Assembly (NCBI GenBank): GCA_028865235.1
Contig: CP114561.1
Coordinates: 3,802,001 to 3,866,000, forward strand
Direction: 5' to 3'
DNA from: Candidatus Manganitrophus sp.
GTDB lineage: Bacteria; Nitrospirota; Nitrospiria; SBBL01; Manganitrophaceae
Length of the DNA: 64,000 nt
Under the pieces are notes generated by a model. It was not told where the DNA came from. It ran no database searches and saw nothing but the letters and a program-made list of their open reading frames with translations. Each line of letters starts with the position of its first letter. Position 1 is the stretch's first letter. The translations under genes and the position numbers were made by a program. Positions 60 to 5,101 of the stretch are shown in pieces.

Positions 60-1752
60 ATGAAGAAAATAGCGGTTATTCTGGGGGGGATTGTTCTGGT
101 TTTGGTTCTCATCCTCCTGTTGGCGCCGTTTTTGGTCGACCTCTCTTTTGTTAAATCGCGTTATTTGCCCCAGGTTGAAGCGGCATTGGGACGGTCGGTC
201 GACGTCGAGAGCGTTCGCCTCTCGCTCTGGCCGCTGGGTGTTCAATTGAAAAATGTCGTTGTCCGGGATGATCCTCAATTCTCCCCCGAAGATTTTTTCC
301 GGTCCGATTCAGTCGTTGTGAGCTTCCGGCTTCTTCCGCTCTTGCAGAAAAGGGTGGAAGTGGAGGAGCTTCTCATTCAAAGCCCGGCGCTCCAACTGAT
401 TCAGGATGCGAGCGGAAAATGGAACACATCGACTCTCGGCGGCGGCAAGAAATCCCCGCCGGGGGGGACAACATCCCCGCAGGAGCAACGTCCGATCGGA
501 ATTCTTGCGGATGAAGTGATCGTCAAAAACGGGCGGATCACCCACGTTCGTCGTGTGAAGGGAGGGCCGCCGTTATCAACTTCCGCTGAAGACTTCGATC
601 TTAAACTGTCCAACCTTCAGTTGGGTGAGATCGCTTCGATCGATCTGGAGACACGGATTGAGCCGCAGGGAAAGCAGACAAGTTTGAAAGGACGGGTTGG
701 ACCGCTGACCACGGCGCTCAAACCGGAAACGATTGATCTTTCGGGAACCGTCGGGCGGAGCGATCTCCACCTTCAGGGGGGATACCAAAAAGGGCGCCTT
801 CTCTTGAGGGCGAATGCGGAGCAGGTTGATCTTGACGAGCTGATGCTCCTTCTGCCGCAAGGGGGGTCTCCTCCAAAGAAGACCTCTCTTCCTCCGGGAC
901 CCCCTCCTTCCTCTCCGGGAACAACCCCGATGGAGGTCGATTTCACTGTGAAAGAGGTTCAGGTGAAAGGGATGGAGGTCTCGAATCTTTCGGGTCGCGC
1001 GAGGTTGAATCGAAAAGTCGGCGCGCTCGAAAATTTAAACGGCAATATCTGGGGGGGGGCATTTTACGGGAAGCGGCCGGGTCGACTTATCGAGCGGCGC
1101 GTTCCCCTTCACAACAAACTTTGCGCTTCAAAAGGCCTCTCTCGGATCGGTCGTAAAGCAGTTCGTGCCGATCGATCCGGGCATTTTCAGCGGGACGACT
1201 TCGATCGGAGTGACGCTGCAAGGGAGTGGAGGAAGCTGGGGAGCGCTTTCAAAGACGTTGACGGGGAAGGGGGAATGGGAAGTGGGAGAAGGGGAGATTA
1301 AGAATGTAAATCTCCTAAGAGAGGCTCTCGCCACGCTTCAGCTCCTCGATCAGGTTCAACTCCCGCTGGAGCAGAATACCCGCTTTTCTTCCGCAAAAGG
1401 GGGGCTTCAGATCGAGGCCGGCCGCATCGGGCTGAGCCGTCTTTCCCTGGACAATCCTCTTTTTGATCTTTTGGGAGAGGGGGAGGTCGGGTTGGACGGT
1501 GTTTACCGCCTCCTCGGCGAGATGAGACTGGCCGAGTCGGTTACACAGAAAATTCGAAGCACGCCGGTCGGGTCGCTCCTCCCGATGGAGGAGGAGAAGT
1601 TGGAGGTCCCGATCGAAATTGCAGGGACCCCTCAAGGCGCCCGCCTCGCCCTCCGTGAGGAAGCGCTGAAGGAGACGGCGGCGAAGCAGCTTCGGGAAAG
1701 ACTGACAGAGAGGCTGGAAAAAGAGGGATTGGGAGGGCTACTGCAAAGATAG
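60..1752 (+). CDS. AsmA-family inner-membrane protein (frameshifted)
   Basis: Proteins of the AsmA type are anchored by one N-terminal membrane helix and expose a large repetitive domain to the periplasm, where family members act in outer-membrane lipid homeostasis. Here a basic start is followed by a hydrophobic segment (about residues 5-25), then the typical AsmA opening with a 'VEAALGRSVDVESVRLSLWP' stretch. A low-complexity Pro/Ser/Gly linker lies near 880-930. The reading frame breaks in a run of nine G at 1051-1059; removing one G joins it to the frame ending at 1752 and restores a GSGRVDLSSGAF stretch typical of the family. The start could also be GTG at 54 or 57. Substrate is unknown. 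The family call is fairly secure; the exact role is not. Confidence 0.75.
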
Positions 1753-1866: not shown

Positions 1867-1907
1867 AACGGTCAGGGCAGATCTCTCTCCTTGACCGTTT
1901 TTCTTTT
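1867..1907 (+). terminator. Candidate intrinsic terminator after the AsmA gene
   Basis: An 8-bp inverted repeat, aacggtca (1867-1874) with tgaccgtt (1892-1899), is followed on the plus strand by a T-rich run (1898-1907). It overlaps the last codons of the convergent histone gene. The loop is long (17 nt), so strength is uncertain. Confidence 0.45.
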
Positions 1908-2054
1908 GTCCGCTCTGGCGCGCTCAATCGCTTCCATCGCGAGTTTTTCAACACGCTGACTGAGCGCCTGGAGAAATTCAGCGGAGGTGTTGAATTCAGA
2001 TTTCTCTCGAATGAACTTCTTAATTTTCGAACTTACCACCAAGATATCGGCCAT
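1872..2054 (-). CDS. Bacterial histone-fold protein (Bd0055/DUF1931 type)
   Basis: A 60-residue single-histone-fold protein. It begins MADILVVSSKIKKFI, continues with a long central helix (NTSAEFLQALSQRVEKLAME) and ends with RARADKRKTVKERDL. The last part matches the 'RKT(V/I)..eDL' signature that closes the histone fold in archaeal histones and in bacterial histones such as Bdellovibrio Bd0055, which dimerise and bind DNA. Length and the absence of tails fit the short bacterial type. A strong Shine-Dalgarno (AAGGAGG, seven bases before ATG) supports the start at 2054. The gene stands alone on the minus strand, convergent with the AsmA gene and divergent from the helicase gene. A nucleoid-binding role is inferred from the family. 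Confidence 0.85.
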   Translation of the reverse strand: MADILVVSSKIKKFIREKSEFNTSAEFLQALSQRVEKLAMEAIERARADKRKTVKERDLP

Positions 2055-2310
2055 TCATTTCCTCCTTCAGCTCTACGTTTACCCTATTGGAATATGAGAA
2101 AAGAACTCTACAAGTTCACGGTACGCGATCGGGGATTCATTCTACATCCAGTTAAAAATGTAGCATGAAAGAAGGAAGCCGCGCAACCAGAATTATTGAG
2201 CGCCCCCTCCTCAGCATAAAAACAAAACCTGTCCGGCGCGTCTGTTTGAGCTTCGCCGAGGTCAATCGGTCCTTGCATTTTCGCAAACAGCAGGGTAATA
2301 TATCAACGAT

Positions 2311-3576
2311 ATGCCTACTGAATTTCGATCGTTGCCGATTCCTCCTCCTGTTCTTGAGGGAATTGAGTCTCTCGGTTTTAAAGAATGTACTCCGATCCAG
2401 GAGGGGACCCTTCCGATCACGCTTGCCGGTAAGGATGTCGCGGGTCAGGCCCAGACCGGGACCGGAAAGACCGCCGCCTTTCTCATCGCCCTTTTTTCCC
2501 GCCTTCTCAAAACCGAGCCTTCCCCTTCCTCCAAGCTCTCTTCTCCGCGGGCGATCGTCATTGCCCCGACGCGGGAGCTGGTGATTCAAATTGCCAGAGA
2601 AGCAACCCTGCTCGGACAGAAGACCCCGTTTAACATCCAGGCCGTCTACGGCGGGATCGATTATCAGAAGCAGCGATCGATGCTGGCGGAGGGGGTCGAT
2701 CTTCTCATCGGAACGCCGGGACGACTGATCGATTATTATAAGCAAAAGGTCTACGACCTTCGCCGGGTGGAGGTTCTCGTGATCGATGAGGCCGACCGGA
2801 TGTTCGATATGGGATTTATCGCCGACCTTCGTTTTATGATGCGGCGTCTTCCTCCTTATCATAAGCGGCAATCGATGCTCTTTTCCGCCACCCTCACGCA
2901 GCGCGTGATGGAGCTGGCTTATGAACATATGAATAATCCGATCAAGATTGAAGTCTCTCCCGAACAGATCACCGCAGAGAAGGTGGAACAGATCCTGTTC
3001 CATGTGGAGCGGACAAAGAAGATCCCTCTCCTGCTCGGTTTGCTCAAGAGAGAAAGCTGGGAGCGGGTGTTGATTTTCGTCAATACCAAAAACCAGGGGG
3101 AGGTGTTGGCGAACCGGCTGACCGAGCAAGGGTATCCGGCTCGGGCGATCACCGGCGACTTGCCTCAAAAACAGCGGATGAAGGCGTTGGAGCAATTCAA
3201 GGAGAGGAAGGTGCCGATCCTGGTGGCCACCGATGTCGCCTCGCGGGGGCTGCATATCGAGGGGGTCAGCCTCGTCGTGAATTACGATCTTCCGCAAGAC
3301 CGGGAGGCGTATGTCCATCGGATCGGCCGGACCGCCCGCGCGGGCGCGGCGGGAAAGGCGTTGAGCCTGGCCGATGAGGAGTATGTCATGGCCCTGGAGG
3401 AAATCGAGGAATACATCGGACAGAAGATTCCGGTCGAATGGCCGGAAGACGACCTCTTCGTTCAGCCCAAATCGATCCCTCATTCCGAGCGGATACAAAG
3501 AACGCGGCCGGCCCATCCCCCTTCGCGCCCGACCAAGGGACGGACTTCCTCTTCAAGGCCGAGAAGGGGCCGGTGA
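2311..3576 (+). CDS. rhlE: DEAD-box RNA helicase, RhlE type
   Basis: ATP-dependent RNA helicase of 421 residues acting in ribosome assembly or mRNA turnover. All core motifs are visible in order: Q motif (TPIQ), Walker A (AQTGTGKT), PTREL, TPGR, the DEAD box inside VIDEADRMFD, SAT (FSATL), and the C-terminal HRIGRTARAG. A short basic tail rich in Arg, Pro and Ser, typical of RhlE, follows the two RecA domains. It heads a plus-strand run with the acyltransferase (54 bases on) and the transglycosylase. No good Shine-Dalgarno sits before ATG 2311, but the Q motif falls at the expected distance. The long leader (2055-2310) could hold cold-shock regulation, which I cannot show. Confidence 0.93.
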   Translation: MPTEFRSLPIPPPVLEGIESLGFKECTPIQEGTLPITLAGKDVAGQAQTGTGKTAAFLIALFSRLLKTEPSPSSKLSSPRAIVIAPTRELVIQIAREATLLGQKTPFNIQAVYGGIDYQKQRSMLAEGVDLLIGTPGRLIDYYKQKVYDLRRVEVLVIDEADRMFDMGFIADLRFMMRRLPPYHKRQSMLFSATLTQRVMELAYEHMNNPIKIEVSPEQITAEKVEQILFHVERTKKIPLLLGLLKRESWERVLIFVNTKNQGEVLANRLTEQGYPARAITGDLPQKQRMKALEQFKERKVPILVATDVASRGLHIEGVSLVVNYDLPQDREAYVHRIGRTARAGAAGKALSLADEEYVMALEEIEEYIGQKIPVEWPEDDLFVQPKSIPHSERIQRTRPAHPPSRPTKGRTSSSRPRRGR

Positions 3577-4310: not shown

Positions 4311-5101
4311 ATGAAACGGGTAAGGTTTCGATCGGTTGTTTTTCTTTGTCTCTTCTTTATCCCCATCTCCGTAGGAGCGTATCTCCTCTCCTATTGGCCG
4401 GAGGTGGAGCGGCTGGCCCAAACCAATCCGAAAACGACGGCCTTGATCGAAGCGCGGAGGGCGAAGGGAAAAAAGAGGAGTCGATCTCGCTCGCCGTGCG
4501 TTGGCGGCCCCTTCGGCAGATCTCGCCCCACCTTCAGCGCGCCGTCGTCGTTGCGGAGGATGCGCGTTTTTACCAACATGAGGGATTCGATTGGGAGGCG
4601 ATCGTGGAGGCGGCCGAGCGGGATTGGGCGGCGAAATCGTTCGAATACGGCGGGAGCACGATCAGCCAGCAGCTGGTCAAGAACCTCTATCTCTCTTCGG
4701 AGAAGAGCCCGATTCGAAAGATAAAGGAAGCGTTGATCACGTCGGTGATGGAGGCGAAGTTGAAAAAGCGGCGCATTCTGGAGGTTTACCTCAATGTAGT
4801 GGAGTGGGGAGAGGGGATTTATGGCGCGGAGGCGGCCGCCGACCATTATTTTTCCAAGCCTGCGGCGGAGTTGGCCCCTCAAGAGGCGGCTTTTCTGGCG
4901 GCGATTCTTCCCGCCCCCCGTTATTACCAGAATCGCCGGTCGACCCCTTATCTGCGAAAGCGGATCGATTCCATTCTTCAGGCAATGCAAAAACGCTATC
5001 CGGAGACCCGGATGGCGATGGAAAAGGAAATTCCAAGGACGATAGAAAACTCAGAGGGACCGGAAGGGGTGGAGACAACGACTACCCCTCAAACTCCTTA
5101 G
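4311..5101 (+). CDS. mtgA: Monofunctional peptidoglycan glycosyltransferase (frameshifted)
   Basis: A GT51 enzyme that polymerises lipid II into glycan strands on the periplasmic face of the inner membrane. One N-terminal membrane helix is followed by the GT51 domain. Visible motifs are EDARFYQHEGFD (with the catalytic Glu), the GGSTISQQLVKNLYL block, the RKIKEA block and the EVYLNVVEWG block. No transpeptidase domain follows, so it is the monofunctional form. The frame breaks at a run of six A (4469-4474); seven A would join ARRAKGKK to EESISLAVRW. The last 20 bases overlap the convergent PilZ gene. Confidence 0.87.

Follow-up and report, generated by a model that had tools for sequence, protein, structure and literature searches.

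The histone gene and its surroundings

Within the window, by which we mean the whole 64,000-nucleotide stretch of Candidatus Manganitrophus DNA analysed here, an intact open reading frame encodes a 60-aa protein (MADILVVSSKIKKFIREKSEFNTSAEFLQALSQRVEKLAMEAIERARADKRKTVKERDLP) with a predicted single histone fold. The initial annotation had given correct coordinates for this gene and had left its strand unstated; it lies on the minus strand, with its ATG start codon at 2054-2052 (Table 1). The ORF contains no cysteines and no extra domain. The plus strand across the gene is also open, and its translation is unrelated to the histone. The very strong ribosome site noted earlier is real, its AAGGAGG being retained in the genus and largely retained in other families, and good expression of the histone may follow from it. 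The gene is monocistronic and free-standing, and is single copy in the window's genome (4.55 Mb, 3 contigs), where searches for a second histone gave only a protein match at E 0.4 and a PF00808 match at 15 bits, below the cut-off, both of which look like chance matches.

Table 1 Features at the histone locus, in window coordinates.
Feature	Position	Strand	Basis or remark
AsmA-family protein, convergent neighbour	60..1752	plus	Frameshift near G-run at ~1050-1060; context only
Inverted repeat, terminator-like	1867..1908	plus	Overlaps 3' end of histone gene
Histone gene, 60-aa single histone-fold protein, bacterial alpha3 (HBb/Bd0055-like)	1872..2054	minus	ORF and homology; stop included
Shine-Dalgarno AAGGAGG	2061..2067	minus	6 nt from histone ATG; same in 4 aligned genus relatives
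Likely promoter: TTGCGC (2186-2181), 18 nt, TGC-TACATT extended -10 (2162-2157)	2157..2186	minus	Conservation
DEAD-box RNA helicase, divergent neighbour	2311..3576	plus	Context only

The 256 bp gap between the histone and the DEAD-box helicase gene holds a conserved promoter-like block. In an alignment of the upstream regions, TTGCG and CTTTCATGCTAC were identical in five genus sequences, and the CTTTCATGCTAC block, ~100 nt ahead of the histone gene, resembles an extended -10. A simple promoter scan did not pick up this element, the match to consensus being weak; from its conservation it is likely to be the histone promoter. At the other end of the gene, an inverted repeat on the plus strand (AACGGTCA ... 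TGACCGTT, then TTTCTTTT) resembles a terminator serving the convergent AsmA gene, and its loop exceeds the length that the terminator scan allows. The AsmA-family gene (at 1050-1065) and a transglycosylase gene (at ~4440-4490) are each divided between two frames close to runs rich in G or A. Both are unbroken in the related genome G396 (L045), where the AsmA-family gene is whole (582 aa), and the splits are likely residual sequencing indels of the assembly.

The window genes surrounding the histone also flank it in every member of the genus that was examined, and do not do so in other families. This includes the divergent pairing with the helicase, which raises the question of whether the protein has kept the histone fold but become a specialised regulator or partner, for example one tied to the helicase. 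We consider this very improbable, as other families lose the helicase neighbour and keep the histone, and the residues that make general contacts with the DNA backbone are conserved (see below); a regulatory tie to the helicase was rejected on the grounds that synteny stops at the family. The differing neighbourhoods in different families fit a general chromosomal, free-standing housekeeping protein. In both genomes of family f4, a conserved gene for a hydrophobic, membrane-protein-like product of 89-91 aa begins 17-20 bp after the histone (L060:6319-6591, L064:990-1256) and is possibly co-transcribed with it; in L048, a member of the genus, a homologue of this gene lies ~3 kb away from the histone.

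Similarity to known histones

The initial annotation had likened the protein to Bdellovibrio Bd0055 (HBb) and had proposed comparing it with this protein and with the archaeal HMfB. Bd0055/HBb was the best solved-structure match by a wide margin (phmmer E 1e-15, 59.5 bits, residues 1-59, ungapped), followed by HTkC (9f2c; 31.9 bits), HLp (9qt0; 29.4 bits) and the HmvA chain 8bdk, while archaeal nucleosomal histones scored far below these three and HMfB was matched weakly, over the C-terminal half only (profile E 0.005). The gap-free alignment to Bd0055/HBb contains 31 identities in 59 residues (53%), where 20,000 shuffles gave 15 at most, and a profile built from 22 Nitrospirota homologues matched Bd0055/HBb at E 9e-28. 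D58 is followed by only two residues before the chain stops at 60, and with helix lengths taken from HBb the protein would have the short alpha2 and truncated alpha3 of the bacterial type; the ORF does not carry the N-terminal ZZ zinc finger of ZZ histones. By overall similarity the protein is a true histone, of the bacterial alpha3 type, and falls in the HBb/Bd0055 “bacterial dimer” group.

General histone models are poor for this short bacterial type. The Pfam archaeal-histone family CBFD_NFYB_HMF matched the protein at 22.0 bits, narrowly passing its cut-off of 21.4, and at 20.2, just below the cut-off, in the genome-wide search; the NCBIfam archaeal histone model gave E 2e-7, under its own cut-off. 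These borderline scores and the shortness of the ORF are what could be said for another small helical family or a spurious reading frame. There is next to no chance of either, given the profile match to a solved histone, the conservation across several families and the low pN/pS ratio described below; the phmmer and profile E values and the pN/pS effectively refute it. The earlier statement that the protein is unlike HU or H-NS also holds, its Pfam matches being to histone families with none to PF00216 (HU/IHF), while HU/IHF genes are found elsewhere in the genome and no H-NS gene was found there. PHROGs has no family for the protein. As to the C-terminal end, the exact form is RKTVKERDL (RKTxxxxD) and not quite the “RKT..eDL” that was given.

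DNA-contact residues and oligomeric state

Molecular dynamics of HBb gave N22, R57, S9, T53, T8, S24, K10, K12, K52 and K16 as its main DNA contacts (PMC11317129). Eight of these ten are identical in the window's histone and the other two are conservative replacements (T8S and K16R). The RD clamp (R51/D58), the supporting D49 and A48 are all retained relative to HBb. Across the 22 Nitrospirota homologues S9, K10, S24, R51, K52, T53, R57 and D58 are invariant; the RKTxxxxD motif with its RD clamp (R51, K52, T53, D58) and the alpha1 lysines K10 and K12 are invariant or nearly so.

Archaeal histones carry a tetramerising histidine at the position equivalent to A48 (PMC10627809), and with alanine here the protein is without it. 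Bacterial dimer histones are described as being without the face-to-face (FtF) residues R48 and N52 (PMC11390915), the equivalents of which are R49 and N53 in HLp (PMC12701072). In the HMMER alignment, the window's histone has R45 at the position of HLp R49 and D49 at that of N53, the HBb residues being S45 and D49; of the 22 homologues, 19 have R or K in column 45 and 16 have D in column 49. The R..N.R tetramer signature (HLp R49, N53 and R55) is incomplete, R45 and R51 being present with D at position 49.

A functional FtF histone, forming a ring-like tetramer that wraps ~60 bp as HLp of Leptospira does, was considered for this reason: R45 aligns with the HLp tetramer residue and with an arginine of HTkC, position 45 is basic in most homologues, and after HBb the best structural matches are HTkC and HLp. 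This is nevertheless unlikely, since HBb scores ~28 bits higher with the single sequence and ~51 bits higher with the profile, the second FtF residue is D49 as in HBb, and the protein has no basic N-terminal tail of the bacterial FtF kind. On balance a dimer is most likely, with a smaller probability left for a tetramer, as R45 is common to tetrameric FtF histones. In another genome record of the same order (L005:5001-5180, also L015), R45, N49 and R51 occur together, so that a sequence otherwise like HBb carries the complete FtF tetramer signature. It is a long shot that R45 lets the histones of Nitrospirota assemble into FtF-like tetramers or some intermediate state, in which case the HBb-type sequences of this lineage would wrap DNA and link the dimer class with the tetramer class.

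Selection and distribution

The histone gene differs from its copy in G396 by 5 synonymous and 0 nonsynonymous changes, and from that in GW715 by about 24 synonymous and 11 nonsynonymous changes (pS 0.62, pN 0.08); in the genus it is clearly under strong purifying selection. The closest named records were Candidatus Manganitrophaceae L003 (90% identical) and the Nitrospirota MAGs L005 and L006 (67-68%). The GW715 MAG also has a second copy (L004:747-926; also G397:C307, L034), 75% identical to the window's, with an in-frame TAG at codon 33 and the remainder still conserved; a recent pseudogene, an erroneous base or the sequence of another strain in the bin could each explain this. A second, divergent copy was found in G292.

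A survey of related genomes, which the initial annotation had called for, found homologues in 26 of 58 relatives. In the genus the histone was present in 5 of 6 genomes, the one without it being 72% complete. It was also present in most of the order's family f2, in f4 and, within the class, in f7, f9, f10 and f13; among the 58 relatives, none was found in the sampled members of f5, f6 and f8, one of which is a large family of the class. In the phylum sample, 18 of 395 genomes had a histone and all 18 belong to the same class. HU/IHF matches were found in all 58 relatives, with six in the window's genome.

On a histone tree of 24 sequences (60 aa), which is mostly unresolved, families cluster together (8 label changes vs 15.8 in shuffles), and this fits descent within the class plus losses. 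Plasmid and phage records gave no histone match at E 1e-5, and thus no hint in those records that the gene came from a mobile element. Histones of 59 aa with 41-46% identity to that of the window (MSDILVVTSKVKA...RKTLKAEDLG) are encoded by three viral contigs, 179-190 kb long (L067, L068 and L069, each at 3001-3174), and probably belong to the phage histones already described.

Proposed function

By analogy with HBb, the protein is probably a dimer which bends DNA independently of sequence and serves as a general nucleoid protein beside HU/IHF. Going by the HBb crystal structure and the 53% ungapped identity to it, two copies would pair via their central helices. The dimer would then grip the DNA backbone, with no sequence preference, through helix 1 (S8, S9, K10, K12, R16), loop 1 (N22, S24) and loop 2 (K52, T53, R57), with R51-D58 acting as a clamp, and would bend the DNA as has been demonstrated for HBb. 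Its cellular role would be general, alongside HU/IHF, and not that of a local regulator of its neighbours. Direct support comes from the gene itself, homology, residue conservation, purifying selection, distribution, the co-presence of HU/IHF and the lack of conserved neighbours beyond the family; the dimer, the DNA bending, the abundance and the nucleoid role are what we infer. HBb is essential in Bdellovibrio and binds the whole genome (PMC11317129), but this essentiality should not be carried over because the window's organism has several HU/IHF proteins. As every genome has HU/IHF, the histone may play only a minor part.

Histones are known from bacteria, though they are not common, and here a known histone family gains a lineage, with no novel type of protein involved. 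Nitrospirota histones are not mentioned in the main texts of the bacterial-histone papers that we found, and the earlier remark that their role in this kind of organism is not described holds for the literature searched. The supplementary tables of the survey of 18,343 genomes (PMC10627809) may well list Nitrospirota. Through this relative of the manganese oxidiser Candidatus Manganitrophus, the finding extends HBb-type histones to a Nitrospirota lineage whose members include manganese-oxidising autotrophs. Their patchy presence within one class, with several families having the histone and another large one in which it was not seen, offers a natural comparison for what a histone adds beside HU.

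Comparison with known histones

Among the characterised proteins, HBb/Bd0055 of Bdellovibrio bacteriovorus (PDB 8FVX, 8CMP, 9EZZ, 9F0E) is alike in length, in register over 59 residues, in its DNA-contact set, RD clamp and SK motif and, as the ungapped alignment suggests, in its short helices 2 and 3; it comes from another phylum and has T8, K16 and S45 where the window's histone has S8, R16 and R45. HTkC of Thermococcus kodakarensis (FtF, PDB 9F2C) shares the histone fold, the RKT loop and the arginine at position 45, but scores much lower, shows one-residue changes of register and has a tetrameric solved structure. HLp of Leptospira perolatii (FtF, PDB 9QT0-9QT2) has the SK motif on helix 1, the RD clamp and the same arginine, and differs in its asparagine at the D49 position, its N-terminal extension, its wrapping of ~60 bp and a one-residue deletion in loop 1. 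The archaeal nucleosomal histone HMfB (PDB 1A7W), the weakest match of the four, has longer helices 2 and 3 and shares with the window's histone the RKT of loop 2 and the RD clamp.
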